60,432 nt of DNA from an uncultured Pseudomonadota bacterium (GCA_903844155.1 CAIMSU010000065.1:1-60432); one strand, 5' to 3'; counted from the first letter of the stretch, positions 15,500 to 55,797 are shown. Made by a program: numbers and translations. The notes: generated from the sequence alone by a model not told the origin.

Positions 15500-18400
15500 T
15501 TGAAGCCCGATCTCCGCGCCGTCCTGCTCTCGGTCGAGTCGCTCGCGCCCGACGAGCGACGGCAGCTGCTCGCGCTCCTGAGCGGTGACACCTTTGACTT
15601 CGCGGCCCCGGAGGCCGCCCCGGCGCGCTCGACGCTCCCGCCACCGGAGCGCCTGGCGGACGACGTCACCGGCGAGAGCCCCGGCCGCTACTCCGTCCGC
15701 GAGCCCATCGGCTCTGGCGGCTCCGGCAGCGTCGTTGCGGTGCAGGACGCCCACCTCAACCGCGTTGTCGCCAGGAAAGAGCTGCATTTTGAAGGGCCGG
15801 GCGCGGGGTCCGTCTCGCTGACTGACCGCTTTCTACGCGAGGCGCGGGTCACCGCCCAGCTTGAGCATCCCTCCATCGTCCCGGTCTACGAATTGGGTAG
15901 GAACACCGAGGGGAAGCTCTACTACACGATGAAGCGGGTGCGGGGGCGTGGGCTGGACGTGGCGCTCAAGGAATGCCGCGATCTGCATGCCCGCATGGCC
16001 CTCCTCGCGCATTTTGTGGACCTGTGTCAGGCCATCGCGTACGCACATGCCCGCGGCGTTGTTCATCGCGACATCAAGCCGATGAACGTGATGATCGGCG
16101 AGTTTGGCGAGACCGTGGTGCTCGACTGGGGCCTCGCCCGCGCGGCCGGGCAGCGCGACATCAACGCCGAGGAGCTGAAGCGCACGGGGGACACCATCAA
16201 CGATCTGAACTCCGGAAAGACTGTTCAGGGCTCGGTTTTCGGGACGCCGGCGTACATGAGTCCCGAGCAGGCGCTGGGTTGGGTCGAGAAGATCGACGCG
16301 CGCTCGGACGTGTGGAGCCTCGGCGCGGTCCTGCACGAGATCCTCACCGGAAAACCCCCGTACGAGGCGGAGGATGTGTTCGGGCTGCTGCGGAAGGCGG
16401 CGGCGGGCGTCGTTGCGCCGTTGCCGAAGGAGATCCCGGCGGACCTCGCGGCGATCGCGATGCGGGCGCTGCAGGCGGAGCCGGAGCGGCGGTACCCGTC
16501 TGCGAAAGAGCTGGCGGCGGAGGTGGAGGCGTGGCGCACGGGCGGACGGGTGGGGGCGTACACCTACTCGTCGATGGAGCTGGCGCGCCGCTTCGTGGCA
16601 AAGAACAGGCTGATCGTGGGGGTGGTGATGGTCGGTGTGGCGACGTGCGCGGCGATGGCCTTCGCGTCCTACACGCATGTGGTGCAGGAGCGGGACCGGG
16701 CGATGGCGGCCGAGGATCGGACGGCAGTGGCGCTCGCGGACGCGCGGCTGAGGGGCTTGCAGGCCCGGGCGAAGGAGGAGGAGATGGGCGGGGATCTTGG
16801 GGCTGCGCTCGCACTGTTGCGCGCCGGGGTGCTCGAGCAGCGCGACAAGAGGGTCGTGGTGGCGACGGATTTGGCGAGGTTGATGGCGGCGGGCGCGGGT
16901 GCGAAGGTGTTTCCAGGCGGATTTGCGGACGATTCGGTGGCGGTGATGCCCGGAAAGCTCGCGTTGTCCCGGGCCGACGGCATGCACATCTACAACACGG
17001 CCACGGGCGCGCAGATCTGCGCGGACCCGGCGCTGCACGCGGGGTTCCCGGCGTTTTCCCGGGACGGCCGCTGGCTCACGGCGTCCGTCGGCGAGGACCC
17101 CTCCGCGCTCGGCCGGTGGGACACCGCGACCTGCGCTGCCACCCATCAGGCCAGCCCTCCGGCCACGGTGCCCTTGCAGGCCCGCGAGGACGAAGCGTCC
17201 GACGACAGCGCCCGCTCGATCGTCGAAGCCGGCCTCAACAACGAGCGCTACGTCTGGGACGCCGTCCGCAACGTCACGCGCCGGTTGAGGACCTCCGTCG
17301 CGTCGCCGATCCACAGCCTCCTCGGCCCCGATGGCAGCTTCGTCGAGATGCAGTTTGCCACGCGGCGTAGCGCGATGACGCGGGACGGCTCCGTTCTCGC
17401 CGCCTCGGTGGGCGACAGCGACATCGTGGAGTTGTGGACGTCTGACGCCGTCAGTCCCGTGGCGCGGGTGGTGGCGGCGGGGTACGTCGATGCCTTCGCG
17501 TTCTCGGGGGATGGCCGATGGCTGGTGACCAGCGCGGAGGGGGAGACGCAAGCGTGGGATCGGCAGGCTGGATGGCGGCCACGGGTCCTGGACGGCCAAC
17601 GGACGATGCCTCCAGCCTCCGGGACTGGCGCCATCGCGACCGGGGATTCCCGATTCGCGCGCCTCACCGACGAAGGGCTCTCCGTTTGGGACCTTGAAAC
17701 CGGTGCGCGGCTCCTCACGGACTTCCAGGTCCCCGGCGCCTCGCTCTCCTTGCTTGGCATGAGTCCGGATGGTCGTGCGGTGTGGCTGCACGGCCAGCAC
17801 AACCTCCCGATCAGGGTGGACGTGCCCTCGCGCTCGTGGGTGGGCTGGTCCCCCAGCGTCCTCACGGCGCGCGGCTGGGTCCCGGACGGCGCTGGTGGCG
17901 GCGCGGCGATCGCGCCCGACGGGAGCTTGCGAGTGGGGATCGAGTCGGCCCGCCCGGCGTCCCGCGTTGGAACCCGACCCGCACCGGTGACCCTGCTGTC
18001 GCTCTCGCCGGGGACGGACGCCGTCCTGGCCGCGTCGGCCTACGGGGCGGTCACGGTCGAACGCGCGACCGGGGCCGTGAGAGAGGCGTTGGGCGATCCG
18101 ACGCTGCCGAGGATCTGGTCGCCCGGCGGCCTGTGCAGCGCGTCCTGGTCGCCCGCCCGCCTCCTCCTCGGCTGGGCATCGAGGTGCCCGGTGGACTTCT
18201 TCCCGCTCTTCGACCCGGACGGGTCGACGCCCGTCGACGTGTTCGTCACCGAGCTGACGGCAGCGGGGACGCGCGCCCTGCCGACGAATCTTGACCCGGG
18301 CATCGCGGAGGCGGACGTGGTGACTGTTTCGCCCGATGGCGCGTGGTACTGGCCGCGGAACGCGACGGGCTGCGGCGCCGTGCGCTCGGTGACGGACCCG

Positions 18401-19192
18401 GCCAGGGTGGAGGTCATCTGCCCGCCGGCGCAGATGAGCTTCGCGGCGTTCAGCCCGGATGGCCGACCGGTCGACTCCTTTGAGGCCGGGGTCCCGGCGA
18501 AGCCCGTCGTCGAGGTCCGCGCGGTCGGCGGGGGCGCGCCGGTCTCGCTCGCGGCTGGACCCGAATTCTGCTTCCAGTCGGCGGATCGCCTTGTGACGAC
18601 CGATGGCAATGGGGTGGTGGAAGGCTGGGATCTGAAGACGATGAAGCCGACCTGGACGGTCGATGTCGGGCTGGGCGGAAGCCCGTACTGCTCGGCGGGG
18701 ATGACCGTTGTCCGCGGCAAGACCGGGGGCTTTGCAGTGGTGGGCGGCGACGGCAAGGTGCGGGCGCGCTGGCCGGCCGGCGACCAACCCGTCGCGAATG
18801 TGCTCATCTCGCCGGACGGTCAACGGGTGGCGGCGTCCTCGGCGTCCGGGCATTTGCGCCTCTACGACCTTGCCACGCAGGCGATCCTCGCCGATCTCGT
18901 CGCCAAGGACGTCGGCGAGCATGCGATGGTCTTCACGCCCGACAGCACCCAGCTCCTCGCCGGGAGTGAGGACGGCGTTGTCTACACCTACGACACGCCA
19001 CCCTTCGAAGCGGCGGCAGCGTTGTCCGCGTCCGGCAACGCCACGAACTTGCGGGTCTGCGAAAAGACGCTCGCCGTCGTCCCGGTGCTCCCGTTTCCGC
19101 CGGCCGAGACCGTGTGGGCACCCGGCGCAGACTGCGACCCGACGCTGCCGAGCCCGGCGCTAACCGAACCTCCAACCGGCAACGGCGGTTGA
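15500..19192 (+). CDS. Transmembrane Ser/Thr protein kinase with WD40-like repeat domain
   Basis: 1230 residues from a TTG 38 nt after the anti-sigma gene. The kinase domain covers about 64-345: P-loop GSGGSG (71-76), Lys93, HRDIKPMN with catalytic Asp191, DWG (209-211) in place of DFG, and SPEQ. A membrane segment follows at about 371-390, then an Ala/Glu-rich coiled coil (395-440) and roughly 750 residues of beta-propeller repeats with WD40-like spacing (FSRDGRWLTASVG, FSGDGRWLVTSAEG, SPDGQRVAASSASG). Key catalytic residues look intact. The propeller would be extracytoplasmic given the single membrane segment. Location after a sigma/anti-sigma pair suggests a shared envelope-signal pathway. 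Confidence 0.9.
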   Translation: MKPDLRAVLLSVESLAPDERRQLLALLSGDTFDFAAPEAAPARSTLPPPERLADDVTGESPGRYSVREPIGSGGSGSVVAVQDAHLNRVVARKELHFEGPGAGSVSLTDRFLREARVTAQLEHPSIVPVYELGRNTEGKLYYTMKRVRGRGLDVALKECRDLHARMALLAHFVDLCQAIAYAHARGVVHRDIKPMNVMIGEFGETVVLDWGLARAAGQRDINAEELKRTGDTINDLNSGKTVQGSVFGTPAYMSPEQALGWVEKIDARSDVWSLGAVLHEILTGKPPYEAEDVFGLLRKAAAGVVAPLPKEIPADLAAIAMRALQAEPERRYPSAKELAAEVEAWRTGGRVGAYTYSSMELARRFVAKNRLIVGVVMVGVATCAAMAFASYTHVVQERDRAMAAEDRTAVALADARLRGLQARAKEEEMGGDLGAALALLRAGVLEQRDKRVVVATDLARLMAAGAGAKVFPGGFADDSVAVMPGKLALSRADGMHIYNTATGAQICADPALHAGFPAFSRDGRWLTASVGEDPSALGRWDTATCAATHQASPPATVPLQAREDEASDDSARSIVEAGLNNERYVWDAVRNVTRRLRTSVASPIHSLLGPDGSFVEMQFATRRSAMTRDGSVLAASVGDSDIVELWTSDAVSPVARVVAAGYVDAFAFSGDGRWLVTSAEGETQAWDRQAGWRPRVLDGQRTMPPASGTGAIATGDSRFARLTDEGLSVWDLETGARLLTDFQVPGASLSLLGMSPDGRAVWLHGQHNLPIRVDVPSRSWVGWSPSVLTARGWVPDGAGGGAAIAPDGSLRVGIESARPASRVGTRPAPVTLLSLSPGTDAVLAASAYGAVTVERATGAVREALGDPTLPRIWSPGGLCSASWSPARLLLGWASRCPVDFFPLFDPDGSTPVDVFVTELTAAGTRALPTNLDPGIAEADVVTVSPDGAWYWPRNATGCGAVRSVTDPARVEVICPPAQMSFAAFSPDGRPVDSFEAGVPAKPVVEVRAVGGGAPVSLAAGPEFCFQSADRLVTTDGNGVVEGWDLKTMKPTWTVDVGLGGSPYCSAGMTVVRGKTGGFAVVGGDGKVRARWPAGDQPVANVLISPDGQRVAASSASGHLRLYDLATQAILADLVAKDVGEHAMVFTPDSTQLLAGSEDGVVYTYDTPPFEAAAALSASGNATNLRVCEKTLAVVPVLPFPPAETVWAPGADCDPTLPSPALTEPPTGNGG

Positions 19193-20186: not shown

Positions 20187-21203
20187 CTACCTCCCCCGTC
20201 CACCACCGGGCGGCCCGCCATGTCCGCCACCCCCGGGCCGGCCGCCGCCGCCACCGCCGGGTCGCCCACCCCCGCCGGCCGGTCCGCCTCGCCCGCCACC
20301 GCCTTGCGGCCCGCCCCGCCCGCCTCCTGGAGGCCCGGCGCCGCGCTGCGGACCTCCGCTCATGCGTGGTCCGTTGCCCTGCTTGACCCGCGCTTCTGCG
20401 GCAGCGGCGTCGATCTCGCGCAACACGCCGCGCGTGTCCGCCTTGCGCGTGGAGCCACGCCAGACGCCGGTCAGCGGCGTTTCGGGGGTGAGCACGCCGC
20501 GCTCGTAGAGCGCCCACATCTCCTCGCCAAAACGGCTCTCGGCCAGCTCAGGCGCAAACCGCGCCAGGAACATGGTGATGTTCGTCACGTCGCGGACCAG
20601 GAGCGCCCGCGCGCTCTGGTTGTGCGCGGCGTTGATCGCCTGCGGCAGGTCGATGATCATCGGCCCATCCCACGCGATCAGCACGTTGTACTCGGAGAGA
20701 TCGCCGTGGATCACCCCCGCGCAGAGCATCATCACCACTTGCCGAACGATGAACGCGTGAACGTTCCAGGCCTCCTGAACCGTAAGGTTGCAGTCGCAAA
20801 GCCGGGGCGCGGCCTCGCCGTTCGGCGCGAGCACGATCTCCATGAGCAGCACGCCGTCCGAGAACACGATCGGCTTGGGCACGCGCACGCCGACGGCGCC
20901 GAGCTTGTACAGCGCGTCTACCTCGGCCGTCTGCCACATCGACTCAACCTGCTCGCGCCCGTACTTGGAGCCCTTCTCCATCGCCCGGCGCTGCCGGCTG
21001 TTGCGCACCAGACGCCCCTCCGTGTACGAAGTACGCTGGTGAAAGCTCCTGTTTTCCGCCTCCTTGTACACCTTCGCCACGCAGAACTTTCCGCCCGCCG
21101 CCACGACGAACACCTGCGCTTCCTTGCCGCTCATGAGCGGGCGCATGACCTCGTCGATCAAGCCCTCTTCGAGGAGCGGTTGGAGGCGGTCGGGGATCTT
21201 CAT
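20187..21203 (-). CDS. RIO-type protein kinase with glycine-rich RGG-like tail
   Basis: 338 residues from the ATG at 21203, giving the usual family beginning MKIPDRLQPLLEEGLIDEVM. Motifs: SGKEAQVF (25-32, the RIO form of the P-loop), Lys44 (AKVYK), the catalytic loop HGDLSEYN with Asp168 and Asn173, and IIDLPQAI with metal-binding Asp185. Bacterial RIO1-like members usually end near residue 285. Here about 55 more residues follow, almost only Gly, Arg and Pro (GGGRGG, RPGGGGGG), like RNA-binding RGG tails. RIO proteins in archaea and eukaryotes act in ribosome maturation; the bacterial role is less clear. Cytoplasmic. Confidence 0.9.
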   Translation of the reverse strand: MKIPDRLQPLLEEGLIDEVMRPLMSGKEAQVFVVAAGGKFCVAKVYKEAENRSFHQRTSYTEGRLVRNSRQRRAMEKGSKYGREQVESMWQTAEVDALYKLGAVGVRVPKPIVFSDGVLLMEIVLAPNGEAAPRLCDCNLTVQEAWNVHAFIVRQVVMMLCAGVIHGDLSEYNVLIAWDGPMIIDLPQAINAAHNQSARALLVRDVTNITMFLARFAPELAESRFGEEMWALYERGVLTPETPLTGVWRGSTRKADTRGVLREIDAAAAEARVKQGNGPRMSGGPQRGAGPPGGGRGGPQGGGGRGGPAGGGGRPGGGGGGRPGGGGHGGPPGGGRGR

Positions 21204-21357
21204 GCGGGCGGTGACTATCATGAAATCGGCCGCAACCACCGGCGCCTGATCGCGTTCCAGTCGAGGCGCTACCGTCTCTTTTCAGGGGCGCTGAAGGCGC
21301 AGCTACGGCCGCCCTGCGGGCCGGCCTGCCCCGCGCTGACCATCCGCATGAATTCCC

Positions 21358-21430: not shown

Positions 21431-22051
21431 CTACCGCATCGGCCCCTCTACCGGGCCTTTGTCCCAGCGGATCGTCGCAGTTGGCGACCACGATTGCCCG
21501 CTCCCAGACTCGATCACCCACTGCGTTGGCGCGTCCGGGCCCGTTGTGAGCGTCCCGCGGACGAGTGGCCCCGCGGGGAGCGCGCCGGCGACGGAATTGG
21601 GCCCGCCGTGCGCCGTCCAGTCGTTGAGCGGAACGGTGAGCTGGTAGGTGAACGGTGGCTCAAACGTGGCCGGACTGCGGTTCGCGAAGCCCGGGGGGTA
21701 GGCGCCGAAGGCAGCGAGGATCCGGGCGACGTCTGCTGCATTGACCGGGAGCGTCCAGACCGCGATCGACCGGAGGAACGCGGCTGCGGCGCCGCCACCG
21801 CCCTTGAGCGGTTGGCCGTTCGCGACGGCGACGCTGAGCGGCTCGCCACCGCTCGGCCCTTCGACGAGCCACAGCCCCGGGACGTGCGGCGACTCGCTGC
21901 ACATCGGGGTGCCGCTCGCGAGGTGGGTGCGATTGACCCAGCCGACGCAGTCAAACGCGGGTTTGGGTGCCGTCGCTGTGGGCATTTGGGCGGGGGCGGC
22001 GGGTGGCGTCGTCGGGGCGCCAGAGCAGGCGGCGAGGAGTGCGAGGAGCAT
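21431..22051 (-). CDS. Lipoprotein of unknown function
   Basis: 206 residues with a short lipoprotein signal (MLLALLAAC, lipobox LAAC, Cys9), an Ala/Pro/Thr linker, and a soluble domain with two Cys (FDCVGWVNRTH; TPMCSESPHVPG). It ends in a beta-rich region rich in Pro, Thr and Trp. No family recognised. It lies 21 nt downstream of the GGDEF-EAL gene on the same strand and may be the last gene of that operon, which would place a lipoprotein in the cyclic-di-GMP block; this is only a positional inference. Confidence 0.65.
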   Translation of the reverse strand: MLLALLAACSGAPTTPPAAPAQMPTATAPKPAFDCVGWVNRTHLASGTPMCSESPHVPGLWLVEGPSGGEPLSVAVANGQPLKGGGGAAAAFLRSIAVWTLPVNAADVARILAAFGAYPPGFANRSPATFEPPFTYQLTVPLNDWTAHGGPNSVAGALPAGPLVRGTLTTGPDAPTQWVIESGSGQSWSPTATIRWDKGPVEGPMR

Positions 22052-22072: not shown

Positions 22073-24253
22073 CTACGACGGCGCCGGGCTTGTCGCCCGC
22101 AGCACAGGCTCCGGCGCGCGGTCCCGCTCGAGCTGATCCGTCAGCATGGCCCGGGCGGCCTCGGCCGTGAGCGCCCGCGACCACAGGTACCCCTGGGCGT
22201 CCTGGCAGCCAAGCTCACGCAGGATCGTCGCCTGCTCCTCCGTCTCGACACCCTCGGCGATCACGTGCATGTTGAGCCCGCGAGCAAGCTGGATGATCGC
22301 GGAGACGATGTTTCGTTGGGTCGTGTCGGCGATGCGGCGAACAAAGCTCCCGTCGATCTTGAGGCCGTCAAAACGCCAGTGGTGCAGGTAGGAGATCGAG
22401 GCGTAGCCCGTGCCGAAATCGTCGAGGTGCAGTTGCACGCCGGCTGCCCGGAGCTCGGAGAAGGTGCCGTCGACGGCGCTGCCCTGGCGGAGCACGCTGG
22501 TCTCTGTCAGCTCGATGTGGACGACGTCCGTGGGCAAGCCGCAGCGCTGGATGACGGCGAGGATCCCGGCGACGGCGTTGCCCTCCGAGAGCTGGCGACC
22601 GCTGAAGTTGACGTGCACCCACACCTCGTCGCCGAGCCCGCGGCGTCGCCAGTCCGCGAGGGTCTGACAGGCTTCTTCGAGGATCCACCAGGTCATCGCG
22701 ACGATCTGGCCGGTCTCCTCTGCCACCGGGATGAACTGGTCGGGTCGGAACAACGTTCCGTCGCGCCGCCAGCGCACGAGCGCCTCAAAACCGTGCACCC
22801 GGCCATCGGCGAGGCCGATGATGGGCTGGTAGTGCACCTCCAGCTCGCCCCTGTCGACGGCGTGGTGCAGGTCGCGCTCAACCTCCAGCCGCTGGACCGC
22901 GCCCTCGTGCATCGCCTCCGTGAACACGCAAACCCGGCCGCGGCCCTCCTTCTTGGCGCGGTACATCGCCGTGTCAGCGTCGCGCAGCAGGTCCAGGCCG
23001 TCGGCGTAGGCAGGCCCGCCGGGGGCAACGCCGATGCTCGCGGACGGCACGATCTCGTGGCCCATGACGTGGAGCGGGGTCTGGATCGCGATCATCATGC
23101 GCGCGGCCAACGCCTCCGCCTGCCCGACCGCGAGCTCGTGGCCGAGGACGACGAACTCGTCGCCGCCGAAGCGAGCGAGGGTGTCGGATGGGCGGACGCA
23201 GCGCTCCAGGCGCTCCGCGACGGCGCACAGCAGCGCGTCGCCGACCTGGTGACCGAGGCTGTCGTTCACGGTCTTGAAGTGGTCGAGGTCCAGGAAAAGG
23301 ATGGCGAACGGGCGCCCGGGGTAGCGCTGGCACTGGGCGATCGCGTGGGCGAGGCGGTCGAGGAGCAGGGCGCGGTTGGCGAGCCCGGTCAGGCTGTCGT
23401 GGAAGGAGCTCTTCAGAAGCTCCCGCTCCTGTCGCAGCGCCGCCGTCACGTCCTCGATCGAGCCGGCCAGACGCGTTGCCTTCCCGTCGGGCTCTCGGGC
23501 GATGCTCGCGCGAAAGAGCAAGGTCCGTTCTCCCTTTCCGGGCACGTTCGCGCGCACGCGATGCTCGAACCGGGCGCGGCTGCTGGCGACGAATCGGCTG
23601 AGCTCCGACTTGAACGCCTGCGCGTCCCCGGGGGAGAGAGCGTCCAGCCAGACGGTGACGGGATGGCTCACGCCCGCCGGCAGCCCCAGTAACTCGGTCG
23701 CCTGATGGGTCACGCTCACGGTGTCCTCGGCGATGATCCAGTGCCAGAGCCCGGTCTGCGCGCCCTCGCTCGCGAGCGAATAGCGGTTCAGGAGCAGGTC
23801 GCGGCGACGGATCCGGTCGAGCAGCGTCGCGTTTTCCCCTTGGTAGATCGCCGCAAAGCTCGCAATGCCGCCACATCCGAGCAGGGTCACTGCAGCGAGC
23901 GCACCGGACTCCGGGTGGGTGGCCACCAGCGCACAGGTCCCGAGCGCTCCGGTGACCGCTGCGACGGCGGCGGGATGCGCGGTCGCGATGAGCCCTGCAG
24001 CGAGGACCGCTGCGATCGCAAAGACAGGGGCGGTTGACTGCCATGCCCACGGGAGGAGCAGGATGGTGACGACGCTGGGGAGCGGCCACACGCGGGGGAG
24101 CCGCAGACCCACCGTGTGCTGCAGCACGGCAACGCACGCGAGGACGCCGCCGCCAAGCGCCAATTCGCGCCGTCCCCAGTACAGCGCCAGCCCCGCCCCG
24201 GCGATCGCATGGGCGCCGATGGCCGCATTCAGCTTTGTCCAGGTGCGGCTCAT
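22073..24253 (-). CDS. Membrane PAS-GGDEF-EAL protein (cyclic-di-GMP turnover)
   Basis: 726 residues. About five membrane segments (10-140) form the input region, followed by a PAS-like domain (about 155-275, GLWHWIIAEDTVSVTHQATE). The GGDEF domain (about 280-440) has the exact motif GGDEF at 363-367 and an I-site RPSD at 354-357 in the correct position for product inhibition. The EAL domain (about 455-710) has EAL (490-492), ELTET, DDFGTGYAS, KIDGSFVR, EGVET and QGY, so both active sites look intact. It could make or degrade cyclic-di-GMP depending on input. The gene overlaps the upstream kinase gene by ATGA, so its level should follow that kinase. Confidence 0.95.
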   Translation of the reverse strand: MSRTWTKLNAAIGAHAIAGAGLALYWGRRELALGGGVLACVAVLQHTVGLRLPRVWPLPSVVTILLLPWAWQSTAPVFAIAAVLAAGLIATAHPAAVAAVTGALGTCALVATHPESGALAAVTLLGCGGIASFAAIYQGENATLLDRIRRRDLLLNRYSLASEGAQTGLWHWIIAEDTVSVTHQATELLGLPAGVSHPVTVWLDALSPGDAQAFKSELSRFVASSRARFEHRVRANVPGKGERTLLFRASIAREPDGKATRLAGSIEDVTAALRQERELLKSSFHDSLTGLANRALLLDRLAHAIAQCQRYPGRPFAILFLDLDHFKTVNDSLGHQVGDALLCAVAERLERCVRPSDTLARFGGDEFVVLGHELAVGQAEALAARMMIAIQTPLHVMGHEIVPSASIGVAPGGPAYADGLDLLRDADTAMYRAKKEGRGRVCVFTEAMHEGAVQRLEVERDLHHAVDRGELEVHYQPIIGLADGRVHGFEALVRWRRDGTLFRPDQFIPVAEETGQIVAMTWWILEEACQTLADWRRRGLGDEVWVHVNFSGRQLSEGNAVAGILAVIQRCGLPTDVVHIELTETSVLRQGSAVDGTFSELRAAGVQLHLDDFGTGYASISYLHHWRFDGLKIDGSFVRRIADTTQRNIVSAIIQLARGLNMHVIAEGVETEEQATILRELGCQDAQGYLWSRALTAEAARAMLTDQLERDRAPEPVLRATSPAPS

Positions 24254-26727
24254 GGCGACGGCATCCGCAGCGTGAACGTCGACCCGAACGGCCGGTCCTC
24301 GACGTCCAGCGTGAGCGTCCCGCCCTCGGCACGCACCATCCGGCGCGCCACGGCGAGGCCCAGGCCCGCCCGACCGGTCGCGCTGTAGAACGGTTGGAAG
24401 ATGCGGTCCCGCACGTCGGCGGGAACGCCGGCGCCCTCGTCGCGCACCGCGAAGGCCACGTGGGTCTCACCCTCGTCGGTGATCAGCAACGTCACCGGGC
24501 GGTCGATCGGGGAGGCGCGCAAGGCGTTGTCAAGCATCGCTACCAGGGCGCGTTCGAGCCGGTCCGGGAACGCACGGATCGAGCGGCCCGTCGTGCTCTC
24601 CACCTCCACTCGTCGCCCCTGGTCCCCCAACGCGGCCACCGCCGCCCGGGCCAGCGTCGAGACGATCACCGTCGGCCGCTGGGCGTCCCGCTCCCCATCG
24701 TCCGGGAGGAGCGCCACTATCGCCCCAAGGCCGTCGCGCAGTCGCGCCAGGGCACTCTCGCTCCCCGGGCTCGCCGCGAGGGCTTCGGCCGGCCCGCGGA
24801 TCGACCTGAGCACGCCGCGGATCAGCGCGTCCAGCTCTTCATCCTGGCGGGCGGCGCGCAGCGTCTCCCGGTCGCCCTGGTTGCGCAGCAGGCCGCGGAT
24901 GACGGTCAACAGCTCGCTGACCTGAAAGGGCTTCGTCAGGTAGGCGTCTGCGCCCTGTTCATGGCCGCGAAGGCGGTCTTCTGGCGCACCTCGCGCCGTC
25001 AGGAGCACGATGGGGATCGCGCGCTTGGTCGGGTCCTCGCGCAGCCGGGCGACCACCTCCCAGCCGGTGATCTCCGGCATCGTGACGTCGGAGACGATCA
25101 GGTCTGGGCGCCGCTCCGTCGCGAGCCGGAGTCCTGCGCGACCGTCCGATGCCGCGAGTACGGTGTAGGTGCTGCCGAGCACGCCCGCGAGGAACCGCAC
25201 CATGTCGGCGTTGTCCTCGATCACCAGGATCGTCGCCCGGGTCCCATCCTGGGCCTGGCGGCGACCGAGTCGGCGCTCCGTCGCTTCGTCCAGACCGAGG
25301 AGCCGGTACTCGTCGCCCCGCCGGATCTGCTCGTGCCACTCGGGCATTCCGACGTTCACGGGGTGCCGAAGCGGGACGGAGTCGAGGCTGGAAGTCGCGC
25401 CGATGGGGAGCAGGAACCGGAGGACCGTGCCCCCGCCCGGGTTCGCTTCAGCGCGGATTTCACCGCCGTGAAGCTGAACAAGCTCGCGCGCGAGCGAGAG
25501 GCCGATGCCGGTGCCCCCGAACGCCCGACCCTCTCCCGTGTCCACCTGGTGGAACCGCTCGAACACCCGCTCCCGTTGCCCCTCCGGGATGCCCGGACCG
25601 GTGTCGGCGACCGCGATGTCCACCGTCTCGCCCATCGGCCCGGACACCGCGAGCGTGACCGTCACCGTGCCGCCGGACGGCGTAAACTTCAGGGCGTTCG
25701 CCAGGAGATTGAGCAGCACCCGCTCGATCTGCTCCTCATCCCCCCGCATCCGGAGGGCGGTCGGCGGCGCGACGAGCCGGACGCCGATCCGCTTGCGGCG
25801 TGCGAGCATGGCGGCCTCCTCCGTCAGCTTGGCGACGAGGCCCCGCACGTCGAAGCTGGACGTATAAAGCCGGAAAGCCGCGCCCTCGATGCGCGAGAGC
25901 ACGAGGAGATCGTCCACGAGACGAAGGAGCCGCAGGGCGGAGCGGCGCGCGAGGCCAAGCTGCTCCTGCTGGGCAGCCGTGAGCTCGGTCGACTCCTCCA
26001 GCATCGACTCCAGCGGCGCGAGCACCAGGGTGAGCGGTGTGCGCAGCTCGTGGGAGATGTTAGCGAAGAACGCGGTCTTTGCTGTGTCGAGCTCCTGGAG
26101 GAGCTGGTTGGCGGCCGCGAGCTGGGCGCGGGTGGAGAACTCCTGGCGACGGAGGTTCCCGCCGTGCCAGGCGATCGCCCCGGCGATGAGCGCGGCGAAC
26201 CAGAGAACGGCGTTCACCGTGATCCATTGCGCCGTCGTCCCCTCCAGGTGGCCGGCAGCCATGGCGATGTCGTAGCACAGGACCGTGCCCGCAAAGGTCA
26301 TCAGCGCGTGCTGCCAGCGCCAGGGGAACGGCAGGGCTGAGAACCCGATGAACGTAAGGATCAACGCCTCATGGTAGTTGCTCGCGGCGCCGCCCACCAG
26401 CCCGGTGACGAGGATCACGCCCGTCCCGATCCAGAGGCAACAAGCGACGCAAAGGACGAACGTGCGGGCGCGGACTGCGGCATGCGAAAGGAATGTCGCG
26501 GCGAGGAGGCCGAGGAGGGCGGCGACGACGATCGCGCGGATCTCGAGCAGCAACATCAGCTTGTCGGCGACGAGGAAGCGGTCGACGAGGCCGAACGCGA
26601 CGAAGGCGAGGGCGCCGAGCGTTGCGGCGACGCGCAGCGACTGCACGAACGCGTGGGCTTGATCGCGGCGAAACGCAATTTCGTCGAAGGGGCCTGCGGA
26701 GTCGGACGGGGGGACGATGCGGGTCAT
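24250..26727 (-). CDS. Hybrid sensor histidine kinase with internal receiver and second ATPase domain
   Basis: 825 residues. Six or so membrane segments (about 30-190) are followed by a HisKA region with phospho-acceptor His226 in NISHELRTPLT and a HATPase domain (about 330-440, N box LLANALKFTP, DTGPGIP, GGTGIGLSLA). A receiver domain (about 498-615) has Asp547 in VSDVTMPEI and Lys599. The C-terminus (about 620-825) holds a second HATPase-like region (MLDNALRASP, DEGAGVP, AGLGLAVARRM) without an obvious His box. A second ATPase domain after the receiver is unusual. Overlaps both neighbours by 4 nt. Confidence 0.92.
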   Translation of the reverse strand: MTRIVPPSDSAGPFDEIAFRRDQAHAFVQSLRVAATLGALAFVAFGLVDRFLVADKLMLLLEIRAIVVAALLGLLAATFLSHAAVRARTFVLCVACCLWIGTGVILVTGLVGGAASNYHEALILTFIGFSALPFPWRWQHALMTFAGTVLCYDIAMAAGHLEGTTAQWITVNAVLWFAALIAGAIAWHGGNLRRQEFSTRAQLAAANQLLQELDTAKTAFFANISHELRTPLTLVLAPLESMLEESTELTAAQQEQLGLARRSALRLLRLVDDLLVLSRIEGAAFRLYTSSFDVRGLVAKLTEEAAMLARRKRIGVRLVAPPTALRMRGDEEQIERVLLNLLANALKFTPSGGTVTVTLAVSGPMGETVDIAVADTGPGIPEGQRERVFERFHQVDTGEGRAFGGTGIGLSLARELVQLHGGEIRAEANPGGGTVLRFLLPIGATSSLDSVPLRHPVNVGMPEWHEQIRRGDEYRLLGLDEATERRLGRRQAQDGTRATILVIEDNADMVRFLAGVLGSTYTVLAASDGRAGLRLATERRPDLIVSDVTMPEITGWEVVARLREDPTKRAIPIVLLTARGAPEDRLRGHEQGADAYLTKPFQVSELLTVIRGLLRNQGDRETLRAARQDEELDALIRGVLRSIRGPAEALAASPGSESALARLRDGLGAIVALLPDDGERDAQRPTVIVSTLARAAVAALGDQGRRVEVESTTGRSIRAFPDRLERALVAMLDNALRASPIDRPVTLLITDEGETHVAFAVRDEGAGVPADVRDRIFQPFYSATGRAGLGLAVARRMVRAEGGTLTLDVEDRPFGSTFTLRMPSP

Positions 26728-29700
26728 CCGCGACGCCGACAGCGCAGGCAGATCGCCTGGCCAGGGGAGCCGAACCCGGTCCAGGTGTCGAGCACCTCAA
26801 AACCAGCGATCACGAGCCGGTCGGCGAGCTCATCGGCACCGTAGAACCGGAAGTACCCCTCCTCCTCGAGGCGAAACAGTTCGCCGCTGGCGTCCAGCAT
26901 GTGGCGCGCCGCTTCCAGCATCGGCCCCCGGCCAGCCTCGCCGAACGCGGCCTCCGGCGCTGCCTGGATCGCAGCCACGCACGCACGGAAGAGCGAGGAC
27001 GTGTCGGCGTCCCGGACCATCGACGAGATCACCAGCTCACCGGCGGGCCGAAGTACCCGACGGATCTCGAACAGGGCATCGTCGGGGTGCTGCAGGTACG
27101 ACAGGACGAGGCTCATGCCGACGCGGTCGAAGCTCGCGTCAGCGAAAGGAATGCCGCCCGGTTCATCGCGGATGTTCGTCAGTCTCGCGAGCGCGGCGAG
27201 GGCATCTTCGGTCAGCTCCCCCGCGCGCACCATCGGCCGGAGATCCACCGTGCGTCCGCACGCCGCCGCATAGATCCGCGGATCACCGGCCTGATCGAGG
27301 CGGGCCAGCAGGTCGGGCGAGATCGGGACCCGACCCCGCAGGCCGGTGAACGTCCGGATGTCACCGGCGACAAACCGGCGCATCGCGGTCGTCGGGCTCC
27401 CCTCGAGGTTCACCACGTGGGTCTCGACGCCGGGCACCTTCTCGCGGAGCCGGGCGAGGGCCTCGGGGACGAGGTCCAGCGCCACGACACGCTTGGCATG
27501 CCGGCAGACGAGCGCGTGCGTGAGGTTCCCGGTGCCGGCGCCGAGCTCCAGCACCTCCAGGCCGCTCGGCGTCAGCGCGTCCGCCTGGCCGTCAATGAAT
27601 TCCCGGTAGGACGGGTACCAGGCGAGGATGTCGAAGCCGAGTCGGGGCTCGTCGCGGCGCGGGGCGTCGAGGCCCTCCGCCAGCAGGTAACGACGCCAGA
27701 ATGCGGCGGCGTCCTCGGGTCGGGTCCGGCGGGTCGCGTGCCACTCGGCCTGCTCCCGCGCGCGAAGCCGGTGCAGCGGCGGATACCACTCGGCGAGGGT
27801 CGACTTGTGGACGTGCGACCAGATCTCCTGGGTGATCAGGGCGAACTGGCGTTGGGCCTCCCTCCCGCTCTTCGGTACGTGCCCGGTGTCCGCCACGATG
27901 AGCCGACGTTTTCCCGGTGCGGTCACCTCCATCACCCGGCTGACCCGGCCGAGGTCCATCCAGCCGTCGTACGCGCCCGCGATCCAGAGCACGTCGGCGG
28001 CGACCTTCGCCATGTCCCGCTCGGATTCCAGCAGCGTCCCGACGTCGAGGACCTTCGCGTCCTGCCAGAACGCCCGACCCTCCACCAGGCAGCCGATGAG
28101 GGTGACCAGGTGTGCTCCGTCCTCCCCGATGGCGGCTGCGTCGTGGTGGCCGGAGACGTGGAGGATCGCGTCGCGCGGCTCCGGCGCGCCCATGTACGAG
28201 ACCCAGAGCCCGATCTCGGGAAACCGGCGTTGCACATCCTCTCGGGCCAGGAGGTGCATGACCGCGCACGCCGCAAAGCTGACGGAGACGAGGATGATCG
28301 AGGTGGGCCGCACGCGGTCGTTGTTCTGGCACCAGTCCAGCGCGCCGAGGATGTCCGACTCGACGCCCGAGAGGCGGTAGCCAAGGGTGTGCTTGCCATC
28401 GACGGCGTTTCCCGGGTCCTTCTCGCTCTCGCCGAGGTTGTTCGTCCCGTCGATGCGCAGTACGGCGATGTCCGCGTGCTGCCGGCGGAAGCTCTCGATC
28501 AGGGTCGTCGCCAGCTGGCTCATCTGCTCTTTGCGCCCAGCGAAGCCCGGCACGACCAGGACGAGCGGCATGGACGCGGGGTGGGCGCCGGGGGTTGGCT
28601 CGGCGCCGTCGAGGAGCCCCACGATCTGCAGGCCGTCGCGGTTTTGGAAATGGACCGTGCGCTCGACGGGGGCCACCGGCGGGGCGGGCGAGGGCAGCGG
28701 TCGCAGGCGGGCGAGGCGCGCCGATGCGACCCCGAGCAGGTCACCCACGCGGGCGAGCAGCCGCTGGTGCCAGCCGCCGATGATCACGCGCCGCTCGGGA
28801 ACGAGGGACTGCCGCGCCTGCCCGAGCGCAACGCCAACGCGGACGGTGCGGTCTCCGCCGCCATTGTCGGTCAGCCTGTCGACGCGGGAGACGACGGCGT
28901 GGTCCAGATCGCGGGACCCACGGTGGTCGCGAAGGACGGCTGAGACGAGCGCGGATCCCGGCGGCATCAGCCAGCGGTCGGCGCTGGCCTCGAACGAAAA
29001 TCCGCCTTCGCCAACCTCGATGACGCGAAAGCTCGCGCGCTCGGTCGGGATCCCCGGGAGCGGCAGGGTGAGCTCGGCGTCGTCGACGAGCATGCGCTCT
29101 CGCGATCGGCGCTCCGCGTACCCGAGCTGGTCGGGCAACCGCATGGTGAACCCGGACGCGGCGATCTCCAGCACCATGCTGGTGAACGCGTAGTTCACAT
29201 GGGCGTGGTCGAGCACGACGAACAGCGGCGTCCCGGCGGTCGGGGCCCCCGGCATGCGCACCGTGAGCGCCTCGCCGCGCAGCCCCTCGAGCGTCCCCTC
29301 CCACATCCGGTTCTGGTCCGCCGCGACGACGCGGACGGTAGCGCCAGCCGCACCGTTGAGGATCGTCCGGATGCGGCCCGGATCCGCGATCGGGGTGGTG
29401 GTGCGCCGCTCGGCATCCAGGACGCGTTCGACCGCCTCCCGCGTGCCGGTCACCGAGTTTGCCTGCGCGACCAGCTTCCGGAACCGCCGGCGATCCTCAG
29501 CCGCCATCGTACGGATCCGCAGCCCAGCGCCCTCGGACGTCACGCGCACGACCTCCATGTTGGCGTCGATGTCGGGCCCGGGGGCGGCGGAGAGGGTGAC
29601 GGGGAGCAGATCGCCGACCCTCAGCGGGAGCGACGTGCACAAAAAGCAGCCGTCCATGCTGGCGTCGCGCGTGTAGCCGATGATCGCGGTCGCCGAGCGT

Positions 29701-29837
29701 GCACCCTTGTCGGTCACGCGGATGCGGAGCGACGGGCGCCCCATGGCGCGCTGATCGTCGGCGCCCAGGCGACCGTGAGCAACCCCGGCGTCGGGGGGCG
29801 TGGTCGGGGGGGTGGCGATGGGGCCGTCGGCGGTCAT
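26724..29837 (-). CDS. PilZ / YcgR-like PilZ / LuxD-like hydrolase / SAM methyltransferase fusion
   Basis: 1037 residues and four parts. (1) PilZ domain, about 25-125: RxxxR at 30-34 and DASMDG at 58-63, the two cyclic-di-GMP binding motifs. (2) YcgR-like N-domain (about 155-240) followed by a second PilZ domain (about 242-340) with RSRER but EVGEGG in place of D/NxSxxG, so weakened. (3) Alpha/beta hydrolase, about 395-690: VVPGFAGRKEQ, VSVSFAA with probable nucleophile Ser520, Asp624 or Asp628, and His653 (DTGH); the arrangement matches LuxD acyl-transferase/thioesterase. (4) Class I methyltransferase, about 755-1037: VLELGAGTGNL, VVALDLV. No membrane segment or signal peptide, so cytoplasmic. 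First gene of the operon. Parts 1-3 are well supported; their substrates are unknown. Confidence 0.88.
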   Translation of the reverse strand: MTADGPIATPPTTPPDAGVAHGRLGADDQRAMGRPSLRIRVTDKGARSATAIIGYTRDASMDGCFLCTSLPLRVGDLLPVTLSAAPGPDIDANMEVVRVTSEGAGLRIRTMAAEDRRRFRKLVAQANSVTGTREAVERVLDAERRTTTPIADPGRIRTILNGAAGATVRVVAADQNRMWEGTLEGLRGEALTVRMPGAPTAGTPLFVVLDHAHVNYAFTSMVLEIAASGFTMRLPDQLGYAERRSRERMLVDDAELTLPLPGIPTERASFRVIEVGEGGFSFEASADRWLMPPGSALVSAVLRDHRGSRDLDHAVVSRVDRLTDNGGGDRTVRVGVALGQARQSLVPERRVIIGGWHQRLLARVGDLLGVASARLARLRPLPSPAPPVAPVERTVHFQNRDGLQIVGLLDGAEPTPGAHPASMPLVLVVPGFAGRKEQMSQLATTLIESFRRQHADIAVLRIDGTNNLGESEKDPGNAVDGKHTLGYRLSGVESDILGALDWCQNNDRVRPTSIILVSVSFAACAVMHLLAREDVQRRFPEIGLWVSYMGAPEPRDAILHVSGHHDAAAIGEDGAHLVTLIGCLVEGRAFWQDAKVLDVGTLLESERDMAKVAADVLWIAGAYDGWMDLGRVSRVMEVTAPGKRRLIVADTGHVPKSGREAQRQFALITQEIWSHVHKSTLAEWYPPLHRLRAREQAEWHATRRTRPEDAAAFWRRYLLAEGLDAPRRDEPRLGFDILAWYPSYREFIDGQADALTPSGLEVLELGAGTGNLTHALVCRHAKRVVALDLVPEALARLREKVPGVETHVVNLEGSPTTAMRRFVAGDIRTFTGLRGRVPISPDLLARLDQAGDPRIYAAACGRTVDLRPMVRAGELTEDALAALARLTNIRDEPGGIPFADASFDRVGMSLVLSYLQHPDDALFEIRRVLRPAGELVISSMVRDADTSSLFRACVAAIQAAPEAAFGEAGRGPMLEAARHMLDASGELFRLEEEGYFRFYGADELADRLVIAGFEVLDTWTGFGSPGQAICLRCRRRG

Positions 29838-47869: not shown

Positions 47870-48094
47870 GGGTGGGCCTGACGGTGTGGAGCGTGGTGCA
47901 TCCGGGCAGTGTATTCTCAAGTCTGGCACGAGGTGGCAGGTTGGCGCGCGAACCGCTTTTTCGGAGGGTTGACGTCCCCGCTCTCCCACCTGAACGCCGA
48001 CCGCGGTGAACTTCGCGGTCTGGTGATGCCGGCCGGTGCGCGAACCGCCTCCGCCGCCCGTCCTTGATACCCGCGCCGTCTCCTCGAGCGCCCC
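47870..48094. promoter_or_regulatory. Divergent intergenic region, promoter not resolved
   Basis: 225 nt between divergent starts. It holds a small hairpin ACCGCG-N8-CGCGGT near 47999-48018. I see no convincing sigma-70 -35/-10 pair. Confidence 0.3.
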
Positions 48095-51000
48095 ATGTTG
48101 TTCCTCGCCCTCGTCGCCCCGCACCTCGCCCTCGCCGCGCCAGCCTACATCCGGTTTCCGGATATTCATGGCGACACGGTTGTTTTTGCCGCAGGCGGTG
48201 ACCTGTGGACCGCGAACGTCGTCGGCGGAGCGCCCGCTCGCAGGTTGACCGCGGCCGACGGCACCGAGCGCTACCCGCGCTTCTCGCCCGACGGCGCGAC
48301 CATCGCGTACACGGGCGAATACGACGGGAACAGTGACGTTTTCGTCATTCCCGCCACGGGTGGCGAGCCCCGCCGCCTCACGTACGGCGCCGACGATGAC
48401 ATCGTCCTCGGCTGGTCGCCCGATGGCACGCAGGTCTACTTCCGGAGCCGTCGGACGGACCCGAACACCTCGTGGCGCATCTACAGCGTGCCAGTCGCCG
48501 CGGGCGGGGTGACTGCGGGCGCAGAACCTACTGAATTGCCGCTCGGTTGGGCGGGCTGGCTGGACGTCGACCCGGACAGCGGCAAGTACGCCTTCACGCG
48601 GACCGGCTTCGAGTCGCGCACGTGGAAGCGCTACCGGGGCGGCACGGCCGACGACATCTGGGCCGGCGACCCGAAGCAGGGCACCTACGCTCGGTTGACG
48701 ACGTTCGAGGGCGCCGACTCCTACCCGATGTGGAACGGCGGAAAAATCTACTTCCTCTCGGACGAAGGCGGGACCGGCAAGCTCTTCCGCATGGACGCCG
48801 ACGGGAAGAATCGCACGCCGCTGACCACCAACACGGACTGGGACATCCGGTGGCCGGCGATGGGGCCGGGTGGGAGGATTGTCTACGGACTTGGCGGCGA
48901 TCTCTGGGAGTACGATATTCCGGCAGACGGCTCGATAGGACAATCGAAGAAGCTCGACATCAATGTCCCAAGCGAAGCTGTCCTCACTCGCGAGGTGTTC
49001 CGGGAGGCGGCGTCGGCGCTTGAGTGGTGGGACCTCTCGCCGGACGGGGACCGGGTGCTCGTGGAGTCGCGCGGGGAATTGTGGAGCGTGCCCGCCAAGG
49101 AAGGCGTGTCGCTGCCAATCACACACGACAGCGCTGCTCGCGAGCGGTTCGGCACGTTCTCGGCTGACGGCAAGTCGGTCCTCTACATCACGGATGTGAC
49201 ACACGAGGAGGCGATCGCGCGCCGGGACGCGTACGGGCGCGGTGACGAGAAGACCGTCGTTCCCGCTGGAGCCACGGGATGGCACTTTGCACCGGTCGAA
49301 TCGGGCGACGGCAAGTGGGTCGCATACTCGGATCAGACACAGACACTCTACGTCGCGCCGGCCGGCGGCGGTCCCGGGAAGGCGATCGACCGGTCGACGC
49401 AGGCGGAGATCCGGGACTACGCGTGGTCCAAAGACGGGCGTTGGCTCGCGTATTCCAAGCTGGACGGGCGAGGGTACTCCGCCGTGTACGTCTATGACAG
49501 TCATGACGCCAGCGTGCACCAGGTCACACCCTCCACGCTCGTCGCCTACGGACCTGCCTGGGATCCCGATGGCCGCTACCTTTACGTGATGGGCGACAAT
49601 CACGTGGACCCGCTGCTCAGCGCACGCGACTTTGACTACGTCGCCATCAACGCGACCTTGCCCTATGCAATCCTCCTCCGCGCCGATGTCAAGAACCCCT
49701 TCGTCCCCGCGGATGGCCTGCCGGACGACGGATCCGACAATGACGAGAAGGACGCGACGGCGGGCAAAAAGGGCGCGAAAGCGGCTGATAAGAAGGGCGC
49801 GAAGAAGGCAGAGAAGGATGGCAAGGACGATGGTGACACGGACGACAAGAAGCCGAAGCCCTTTGAGATCACCTTCGACGGCATGGCCGATCGCATGGCG
49901 CCGTTCCCCGTCCAGGCCGCGATCTACGGCGATCTCTCTGCCAATTCGGAGGGTGTCTATTACTTGAGCAGCCCGATCCAGGGGATGGCCGACTCCCCCG
50001 ACAGCGAGGACGACGCTCCCCAGTGCAAATCCAGCTTGATCCGCTTTGACCTTGCAAAGCGTAAGCCGGAGACGTTCCTGTCGGGGATCGGTGACTACCG
50101 CCTCGCTGGCAAGGGCGAGAAGGTCGCTGTGTTGACAGCCCCGGGCGCCATCAGTGTGCTGGACGCGGGCGCTGTGCCCGCCGCGCCTCCCGGGCCAGAT
50201 GCCGCCGTGAACCTGGAAGACGTCGTGATCCGCCTCGATCCCCGCGAGGAGTGGACGCAGATCTACTACGAGGCCTGGCGCAACATGCGCGACTTCCACT
50301 GGGATCCGAAGATGGCCGGTGTGGACTGGCAAAAGATGCGCGATCAGTACGCGAAGCTGTTGCCCCGGCTGACCAGCCGCGCGGAGCTGACCGATCTGTT
50401 GGGCGAGCTCATCGGTGAGTTGGCCAACTCACATACGTACGTCGGCGGCGGGGACCCGGGGAAGGGGCCCGATCTCTACCCGACCGGGAACCTCGGCGCG
50501 GACTTCACCCGCGATGGGACGGCCTTCAAGATCACCCGCATCTACCACGGGGATCCCGCGGACAACGACGTCAACCCCTTGCTCGTGCCGGGTGTCGGCG
50601 TGCAGGAAGGCGACTTCATCCTTCAGATCGACCATCAGACCCCCGCGGCCGACAAGCCGATCGAGGCCGCGCTCGCCTGGAAGGCCGGGACACGCGTGGT
50701 TTTGACGGTCAACAGCAAGAACTCGACGACCGGCGCGCGCGACGTGATCGTCACCCCGCGCGGCGACGATCACTCGCTCCGCTACCACGACTGGGTGCGC
50801 AAGAACCGCGAGTACGTCGCCGATAAGTCGGGCGGAAAGCTCGGCTATATCCACATCCCGGACATGGGCGTCGGCGGGCTCATCGCCTTTGACACCTGGT
50901 TCGCCCCGCAGTTGGACAAACAGGGGCTGGTGATTGACTGTCGTTGGAACCGCGGCGGCTTCGTCAGCCAACTTCTGATCGAGCGGTTGGAGCGGAAATT

Positions 51001-51454
51001 GGTTGGCTTTGACCGCGCGCGCAACGGCGGTACCGACACCTATCCATCGCACGTCCTCAACGGGCAGCTCGTGGTCCTCACCAACCAGTTCGCCGGGTCT
51101 GACGGCGATATCTTCCCCTACAGCGTCCAGCGCCTGGGGCTCGCGCCCGTCATCGGCGAGCGCTCCTGGGGCGGCGTTGTCGGCATTCGCGGCGACAAGC
51201 CCATGGTAGACGGCGGGTATCTGACACAGCCTGAGTATGCCAACTGGTGGCCAGGGACGGGCTGGGCCGTCGAGAACCACGGCGTCGACCCGGACATGGT
51301 CGTCGAGAACATGCCACAGGACGTCGCGGCCGGCCGCGACCCGCAGCTTGACGCGGCGATCGCGCAGCTCCAGAAGGAGGTCCTCGCCAAGCCACCGGTG
51401 AAGCCTGATTTTGGGCCGGAGCCCAAAAAGACCCGCCAGGACTTTGAGAAGTAG
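48095..51454 (+). CDS. Tricorn-like S41 protease with propeller and PDZ domains
   Basis: 1119 residues. Signal peptide (MLFLALVAPHLALAAP), then two propeller-like blocks (about 20-540: FPDIHGDTVVFAAGGDLWTA, YPRFSPDGATIAYTG, WSKDGRWLAYS), a Lys/Asp-rich insert at about 552-590, a helical bundle (EEWTQIYYEAWRNMRDFHWD), PDZ and the S41 core. His780 (NSHTYV) and Ser1002 (FAGSDGDIFPY) are the expected catalytic pair, and HGVDPDMVVENMP is the tricorn C-terminal motif. Tricorn proteases cut peptides to short products; this one would act in the periplasm. Full length for the family. Confidence 0.92.
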   Translation: MLFLALVAPHLALAAPAYIRFPDIHGDTVVFAAGGDLWTANVVGGAPARRLTAADGTERYPRFSPDGATIAYTGEYDGNSDVFVIPATGGEPRRLTYGADDDIVLGWSPDGTQVYFRSRRTDPNTSWRIYSVPVAAGGVTAGAEPTELPLGWAGWLDVDPDSGKYAFTRTGFESRTWKRYRGGTADDIWAGDPKQGTYARLTTFEGADSYPMWNGGKIYFLSDEGGTGKLFRMDADGKNRTPLTTNTDWDIRWPAMGPGGRIVYGLGGDLWEYDIPADGSIGQSKKLDINVPSEAVLTREVFREAASALEWWDLSPDGDRVLVESRGELWSVPAKEGVSLPITHDSAARERFGTFSADGKSVLYITDVTHEEAIARRDAYGRGDEKTVVPAGATGWHFAPVESGDGKWVAYSDQTQTLYVAPAGGGPGKAIDRSTQAEIRDYAWSKDGRWLAYSKLDGRGYSAVYVYDSHDASVHQVTPSTLVAYGPAWDPDGRYLYVMGDNHVDPLLSARDFDYVAINATLPYAILLRADVKNPFVPADGLPDDGSDNDEKDATAGKKGAKAADKKGAKKAEKDGKDDGDTDDKKPKPFEITFDGMADRMAPFPVQAAIYGDLSANSEGVYYLSSPIQGMADSPDSEDDAPQCKSSLIRFDLAKRKPETFLSGIGDYRLAGKGEKVAVLTAPGAISVLDAGAVPAAPPGPDAAVNLEDVVIRLDPREEWTQIYYEAWRNMRDFHWDPKMAGVDWQKMRDQYAKLLPRLTSRAELTDLLGELIGELANSHTYVGGGDPGKGPDLYPTGNLGADFTRDGTAFKITRIYHGDPADNDVNPLLVPGVGVQEGDFILQIDHQTPAADKPIEAALAWKAGTRVVLTVNSKNSTTGARDVIVTPRGDDHSLRYHDWVRKNREYVADKSGGKLGYIHIPDMGVGGLIAFDTWFAPQLDKQGLVIDCRWNRGGFVSQLLIERLERKLVGFDRARNGGTDTYPSHVLNGQLVVLTNQFAGSDGDIFPYSVQRLGLAPVIGERSWGGVVGIRGDKPMVDGGYLTQPEYANWWPGTGWAVENHGVDPDMVVENMPQDVAAGRDPQLDAAIAQLQKEVLAKPPVKPDFGPEPKKTRQDFEK

Positions 51455-51457
51455 CTA

Positions 51458-51533
51458 CCACAACTGCGGAGACCACTTCTGGTAGATCCCCCGCGTGACG
51501 GGCATGTACCACAAATGGTCTCCGCAGTTGTGG
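51458..51533. repeat. Perfect 18-bp inverted repeat with 40-nt loop
   Basis: CCACAACTGCGGAGACCA (51458-51475) is repeated inverted at 51516-51533. It begins 4 nt after the protease stop and ends 13 nt before the 3' end of a convergent gene. It may be a bidirectional terminator or a mobile-element scar. A nested CTACCA...TGGTAG repeat overlaps the left arm. No T-run. Confidence 0.75.
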
Positions 51534-51545
51534 GAGGTTGGGAGG

Positions 51546-53340: not shown

Positions 53341-53416
53341 CGCGGACTCCGGGTGCGCCAACGGTAGCACAACGCGCGCGGACTCGTCAGCGCTGCAACC
53401 AGCGGGCGTTACAATC

Positions 53417-53461
53417 CTCATCCCGCATTTCGTATCCGAAGGATACGAAATGCGGGATGAG
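53417..53461. repeat. Perfect 21-bp palindrome with GAA loop
   Basis: Arms at 53417-53437 and 53441-53461 pair perfectly (core TTTCGTATCC/GGATACGAAA); after one mismatch, CAAT/ATTG (53412-53415, 53463-53466) extends the stem. It lies in the 268-nt gap downstream of the sulfotransferase-like gene and upstream of the barrel operon. No T-run. The rest of 53341-53608 shows no gene. Confidence 0.8.
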
Positions 53462-53608
53462 CATTGTTACCGGGGGCAGACGGACAGGGTGGGCCGGAAA
53501 ACCCGCTGGCTGAACGGGGGCAGATGTTCAATGGAGCGGGAGCGACGTGGCGGACGTTGGGAGGCGCGCCGATGAGCCCCGAAGAAAGCCGAAAACCCCG
53601 CCCCCGGC

Positions 53609-54241: not shown

Positions 54242-54274
54242 GGGGAGGGCTCCGCGCGCCCGCGTCTAACGCGC

Positions 54275-54718: not shown

Positions 54719-54733
54719 CTGCCCCGATAACGC

Positions 54734-55749: not shown

Positions 55750-55797
55750 GCGAAACTCCTTTGTGAATGCGTAGGGGCGCGATTCATCGCGCTCTCT

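Follow-up and report, generated by a model that had tools for sequence, protein, structure and literature searches.

What would an enzyme that carries putative cyclic di-GMP (c-di-GMP) receptor domains make, and why is it encoded beside a membrane sensor kinase? The question is raised by three overlapping genes in the window, a 60,432-nucleotide stretch of DNA from an uncultured myxobacterium (GCA_903844155.1, CAIMSU010000065.1:1-60432). They encode, in order of transcription, a PilZ-enzyme fusion, a six-transmembrane (6TM) hybrid histidine kinase and a GGDEF-EAL protein. The first-pass annotation of this DNA had called them a three-gene c-di-GMP circuit. The pairing of fusion and kinase is kept in relatives, but the c-di-GMP turnover enzyme is variable, and the invariant core is a PilZ-controlled biosynthetic enzyme with a dedicated kinase. 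We put it at about even that the locus is a c-di-GMP-gated synthase-sensor module, in which an acyl-derived methylated product would have its own sensor, as in PhcB/PhcS, with an Rpf-like c-di-GMP output.

The three genes

The genes are as follows, with protein lengths in amino acids (aa).

26724..29837, minus strand: gene 1, fusion of PilZ, YcgR-like PilZ, LuxD-like hydrolase and S-adenosylmethionine (SAM) methyltransferase, 1037 aa
24250..26727, minus strand: gene 2, 6TM hybrid histidine kinase, 825 aa
22073..24253, minus strand: gene 3, membrane PAS-GGDEF-EAL protein, 726 aa, hydrophobic segments at aa 31-136

The open reading frames (29837-26724, 26727-24250 and 24253-22073) lie exactly where they had been placed, and both junctions are four-nucleotide ATGA overlaps, with the sequences GGATGACC and CCATGAGC. 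Pfam domains agree with the three protein types proposed. An enzyme had been recognised in gene 1, but its identity as a LuxD-like thioesterase joined to a methyltransferase had been missed.

Distribution of the fusion-kinase pair

The fusion protein is present in 46 of 284 sampled Myxococcota genomes and in five of 198 sampled Spirochaetota genomes, Spirochaetaceae and Spirochaetales metagenome-assembled genomes (MAGs) being among the latter. A contig of the same genus as the window comes from a Myxococcales MAG from Lake Baikal (SHYV01000042.1). The earlier proposal was to be abandoned if the gene order was not conserved in any relative, and it withstood this check. In all 44 loci with enough contig, which span both phyla, a 6TM hybrid kinase of the same family lies downstream of the fusion on the same strand; this count leaves out L050, L051, L052 and L082, where the contigs end before the kinase position. 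Relatives at 25-70% protein identity keep gene order and strand, and the four-nucleotide overlap of genes 1 and 2 is seen again in at least nine other loci. The arrangement is therefore more than chance.

When those genomes of the order that carry the fusion are searched with a profile of only the 6TM domain, each gives a single strong match (E 6e-40 or better). This match is in every case encoded beside the fusion, and no other match is stronger than E 2e-33. Fusion and kinase distances correlate (r=0.90, 496 pairs); kinship alone also yields a high r, so this value shows joint inheritance more than co-adaptation. Plasmid searches with the full fusion and with the 6TM domain of locus L100 gave no match. 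One relative's fusion homologue (L006, G045:C305:1138-4227) contains an in-frame TGA, which is either a draft assembly error or decay.

The fusion protein

The domains of the fusion, from the N-terminus, are:

29463..29738, minus strand: N-terminal PilZ domain (PilZ1), aa 34-125, Pfam PF07238, E 7.6e-11
28803..29390, minus strand: YcgR-like PilZN and second PilZ domain (PilZ2), aa 150-345, profile matches to YcgR (5y6f) and PP4397 (2gjg/3kyf)
27783..28670, minus strand: LuxD-like alpha/beta hydrolase, aa 390-685, profile match to 1tht at E 2.6e-9, Foldseek match to 1tht at E 4e-12, Acyl_transf_2 in relatives
26727..27635, minus strand: class I SAM methyltransferase, aa 735-1037, Pfam Methyltransf_11, E 7e-15, motif ELGAGTGN

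The known targets of PilZ receptors are for the most part motility, polysaccharide export and transcription. Both parts of the receptor motif (RxxxR and [DN]xSxxG) are intact in PilZ1 of the window protein, as R34xxxR38 and D58xSxxG63, which makes c-di-GMP binding by this domain plausible. PilZ2 has RxxxR only: R244xxxR248 is nearly invariant, the motif being 97-100% conserved among homologues, and DxSxxG is degenerate in the window protein (EVGEGG) and its genus but intact in many relatives. A sub-profile search aligns PilZ2 with YcgR and PP4397 so that the RxxxR and DxSxxG motifs are in register. These receptors share with the fusion the PilZN-PilZ order and an ERRxxxR motif. They differ in that YcgR/PP4397 is a flagellar brake, whereas in the window the PilZ module heads an enzyme fusion, and in the degenerate DxSxxG of the second PilZ domain in the window genus.

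The Pfam scan of the window protein lists the PilZ and methyltransferase domains and leaves aa 130-735 blank. The hydrolase was recovered only through relatives, where matches to Acyl_transf_2 (PF02273) fall below the Pfam cut-off, and through a profile built from 38 homologues, by which LuxD (1tht) is its best solved relative. S520, D624 and H653 are invariant in the 38 sequences, and the region has the fold and the Ser-Asp-His triad of the LuxD family. In the 1tht alignment S520 and D624 correspond to LuxD residues 114 and 211; H653 is not aligned to the LuxD histidine. The AlphaFold2 model of the whole protein has a mean predicted local distance difference test score of 84, and LuxD ranks third in a fold search of the PDB. 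It stands there among other esterases and lipases, so the fold alone leaves the substrate unfixed. LuxD is a myristoyl-acyl carrier protein (ACP) thioesterase (1THT), and the window hydrolase has its fold and nucleophile elbow in addition to the two equivalent residues; unlike LuxD, it is fused to PilZ and methyltransferase domains and occurs without lux genes. The three glycines of the methyltransferase motif are invariant in the alignment. The fusion enzyme probably makes a fatty-acid-derived molecule.

The sensor kinase

The kinase encoded by gene 2 consists of:

26113..26685, minus strand: 6TM sensor domain, aa 15-205, homologous by hhalign to the 6TM domain of the kinase in a phcBSRQ-like operon
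25885..26082, minus strand: HisKA, aa 216-281, Pfam, invariant phospho-acceptor H226
25402..25743, minus strand: HATPase_c, aa 329-442, Pfam
24898..25230, minus strand: receiver (Response_reg), aa 500-610, Pfam, invariant D547
24277..24549, minus strand: C-terminal second ATPase-like module, aa 727-817, Pfam and alignment

It therefore has the HisKA histidine, HATPase and receiver aspartate of a hybrid histidine kinase. D49, R64, Y118 and P135 are invariant in the 6TM domain among homologues, and this domain weakly resembles the Pfam family MASE8. The histidine of a second HisKA is lost in the window kinase, whereas most relatives have this second HisKA intact.

The best curated family match of the kinase core is LvrA of the Leptospira LvrA/LvrB system, at 298 bits, below the family cut-off of 1200. 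We rejected LvrA/LvrB as a relative of gene 2. The likeness is in the kinase core only, and the Lvr proteins are cytoplasmic, without transmembrane helices (PMC5863495). In the available part of that paper no enzyme neighbour is mentioned for them, unlike for the window kinase.

The 6TM domain was also observed in other settings. At L136:8344-9453 it is joined directly to GGDEF. At L099:1-4875 a 6TM kinase has no methyltransferase homologue nearby, and a GGDEF protein adjoins it on the opposite strand.

Turnover enzymes and other neighbours

Gene 3 has matches to PAS, GGDEF (E 8e-45) and EAL (E 1e-67) in Pfam. Its catalytic domains are:

22937..23404, minus strand: GGDEF domain with an RxxD I-site, Pfam, RPSD-x5-GGDEF
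22175..22876, minus strand: EAL domain, Pfam, with EAL, ELTE, DDFGTG, LKID, EGVE and QGY present

The GGDEF, I-site and EAL catalytic motifs, previously described as intact, are all present on reading them out, and the predicted protein could in principle both make and break c-di-GMP.

A GGDEF-EAL gene follows the kinase in the window genus and in the lineages g12, g30 and f7, and is inverted in f33. In f45 it lies at the edge of a contig, and its position would fit a place after the kinase. In each genome with an adjacent GGDEF-EAL gene, that gene encodes the genome's best match to the window protein. In genus g3 a gene for a receiver (REC)-ATPase protein precedes the fusion, and at three g3 loci the kinase has as its neighbour a convergent gene from a family whose representative is REC-EAL. 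An MMPL/HAE3 transporter gene adjoins the fusion in 13 Myxococcota loci, usually between fusion and kinase. The Spirochaetota order is fusion, AMP-ligase, ACP, B12-radical SAM enzyme and a 6TM kinase with receiver and HD-GYP domains; the B12-radical SAM gene was not detected in the Spirochaetota locus L053. Lineages thus differ in how c-di-GMP turnover is joined to the pair, with at least three forms: GGDEF-EAL, REC-EAL and HD-GYP fused to the kinase.

The lipoprotein gene at 21431-22051 had been suggested as a fourth member of the operon. We rejected it, since it has no homologue in any related locus and the next gene is on the opposite strand in several relatives.

Relation to the Phc and Rpf systems

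PhcBSRQ is a quorum sensing system of Ralstonia and Cupriavidus. Its signals are the fatty-acid methyl esters 3-hydroxypalmitic acid methyl ester (3-OH PAME) and 3-hydroxymyristic acid methyl ester (3-OH MAME). The RpfF-RpfC-RpfG system, in which RpfF is a crotonase-family synthase, serves diffusible signal factor (DSF) signalling. The phc cluster has been reported to be restricted to Betaproteobacteria (PMC10653808). The following loci bear on the comparison with Phc:

L104:5440-9812: phcBSRQ-like operon on the conjugative plasmid pPHS1_P of Paraburkholderia graminis, with a methyltransferase (468 aa), a 6TM kinase (445 aa) and two receiver proteins
L098:6469-12201, L100:3885-9082 and L102:51-5559: 6TM hybrid kinase with a PilZ-methyltransferase of about 493 aa and a REC-HisKA-HATPase protein

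PhcB has 464-468 aa, PhcR 368-374 aa with receiver and kinase domains, and PhcQ 336-337 aa (PMC8578825). The P. graminis operon is phc-like because its gene order and protein sizes fit these, though in the place of PhcR it encodes just a 134-aa receiver. The window family's 6TM domain aligns with the P. graminis kinase over its whole length (hhalign probability 98, E 1e-13 to 2e-14), against a probability of 4 for a hydrophobic segment used as negative control. Through this kinase, which is phc-like by context and size and not a proven PhcS, the window locus has a PhcS-type 6TM kinase.

The two systems also share a methyltransferase gene beside its sensor-kinase gene. The phospho-acceptor H226 has a similar position to H230 of PhcS (PMC11960443), and PhcR has a receiver followed by an ATPase module (PMC8578825), as does the window kinase. 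In contrast to Phc, the window has no separate PhcR (REC-kinase) and PhcQ (REC) genes after the kinase: the receiver and ATPase are fused into gene 2, and GGDEF-EAL stands in place of PhcQ. The window methyltransferase, to which PilZ and a LuxD-like hydrolase are fused, belongs to another family. Its assignment to the PhcB family was rejected, as BLASTP against the 468-aa PhcB-like protein and the PilZ-methyltransferases gave no match at 1e-3, and hhalign finds superfamily-level similarity only. A PilZ domain at the N-terminus of the PhcB-like protein was also sought by hhalign but not found (probability at most 1.2). With a methyltransferase outside the PhcB family and with thioesterase and c-di-GMP control added, the module is by sequence not a member of PhcBSRQ, though its predicted layout works like Phc.

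The sets at L098, L100 and L102 were found as weaker 6TM matches in the order. Their PilZ-methyltransferases match the 468-aa P. graminis protein (29-34% identity, profile E 2e-27), and they are apparently an undescribed phc-like set with PilZ in Myxococcota.

The Spirochaetota version matches Rpf/DSF in having acyl chemistry next to a membrane-bound hybrid kinase with HD-GYP as output. The window differs in its GGDEF-EAL output and in an enzyme that carries PilZ, and a Pfam scan covering part of the locus proteins showed no crotonase-type RpfF.

Proposed mechanism and alternatives

In the module that we propose, the LuxD-like hydrolase would take an acyl chain from acyl-ACP or an acyl thioester, by hydrolysis or transfer, and the methyltransferase would methylate the resulting product, for example to a methyl ester. 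Binding of c-di-GMP to the PilZ domains would switch synthesis on or off. The 6TM kinase would sense the product, either the cell's own or exported, and a phosphorelay to D547 would pass a signal from the receiver to the GGDEF-EAL enzyme or, in Spirochaetota, in cis to the HD-GYP phosphodiesterase. Product level and c-di-GMP level would then control each other. The step from receiver to c-di-GMP turnover is best supported in Spirochaetota because receiver and HD-GYP are on one chain. Acyl chemistry and export fit because of the accessory genes, which are those for AMP-ligase, ACP and usually B12-radical SAM, and for the exporter in the 13 loci with MMPL/HAE3.

The layout of an enzyme with its own membrane sensor kinase resembles quorum sensing, and there is a fair chance that the fusion is a c-di-GMP-gated signal synthase. 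A more far-reaching reading is held tentatively, with the balance somewhat against it. It is that of a cell-cell signalling system, old enough to occur in both Myxococcota and Spirochaetota, whose autoinducer synthase is itself the c-di-GMP receptor. Turnover of c-di-GMP would be under the control of the cognate 6TM kinase, so that second messenger and quorum signal would be linked in a closed loop.

Several points weigh against the proposed module, beside the distance of the methyltransferase from PhcB. Product, ligand and c-di-GMP binding are what we infer from sequence. In most Myxococcota that have the pair, no gene for a c-di-GMP enzyme adjoins it, and the N-terminal PilZ domain is missing from some fusions. 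The Phc link is made through a Paraburkholderia operon judged by gene order and protein lengths, not through Ralstonia PhcB/PhcS. The 6TM domain is elsewhere fused to GGDEF, hence a general sensor, and is therefore a module with more than one use. There is also a likeness between the radical-SAM and MMPL genes and those of hopanoid/lipid pathways.

This last point leads to the main rival, in which the fusion, regulated by c-di-GMP, makes or alters a lipid of the cell envelope and no diffusible signal is produced. The kinase would then sense the state of the envelope or of the lipid and adjust c-di-GMP, in settings such as surface attachment or predation. The transporter of the 13 loci has distant similarity to HpnN, the Spirochaetota B12-radical SAM enzyme is HpnJ-like, the AMP-ligase resembles fatty-acid ligases and occurs with an ACP, and lipid and phosphoethanolamine methyltransferases are among the nearest solved relatives of the methyltransferase. 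However, kinase and enzyme are equally conserved, the kinase has its 6TM domain in common with the phcBSRQ-like operon kinase, and the loci share no other envelope gene throughout. We consider this explanation unlikely, though it is the strongest of the three.

More improbable still is that the PilZ parts are structural remnants, that the module is an ordinary metabolic enzyme under two-component regulation, and that the c-di-GMP link seen in the window is peculiar to its lineage. PilZ1 is missing from many relatives, PilZ2 is degenerate at DxSxxG in the window genus, and many loci stand without a turnover gene, all of which favours this reading. The conservation of RxxxR in PilZ2, the presence of both motifs in window PilZ1 and the attachment of three kinds of c-di-GMP enzyme in different lineages speak against it. 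That three signalling and enzyme genes with no relation to one another lie together by chance, conceivable in large genomes with many kinases and several GGDEF-EAL proteins, is refuted by the 44 pairs over two phyla and by the best-match GGDEF-EAL neighbours, and we give it almost no weight.

Other features of the window

Two further kinases are encoded at positions below 22073: a large Ser/Thr kinase of 1230 aa with a C-terminal WD40-like propeller (15500-19192) and a RIO-family kinase with a long low-complexity Gly/Arg/Pro tail (20187-21239). At 48000-60432 the guanine-plus-cytosine content drops from about 0.70 to about 0.66; a tricorn-like protease is encoded in this segment (48095-51454), as are, side by side, two type I phosphodiesterase proteins (55798-60127).

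Implications

The three-gene system is apparently undescribed. Searches of the open-access literature turned up no account of the PilZ-hydrolase-methyltransferase fusion or of its pairing with the kinase, which is weak evidence as subscription papers lie mostly outside it, and the main text of a survey of PilZ proteins in Myxococcus xanthus makes no mention of a hydrolase or methyltransferase. If the proposed module is correct, c-di-GMP would act directly on the production of a chemical signal or lipid, through PilZ fused to a biosynthetic enzyme with a permanently paired sensor kinase. Phc-type signalling would gain relatives in two further phyla, and the products would be candidate signals for social and predatory myxobacteria.
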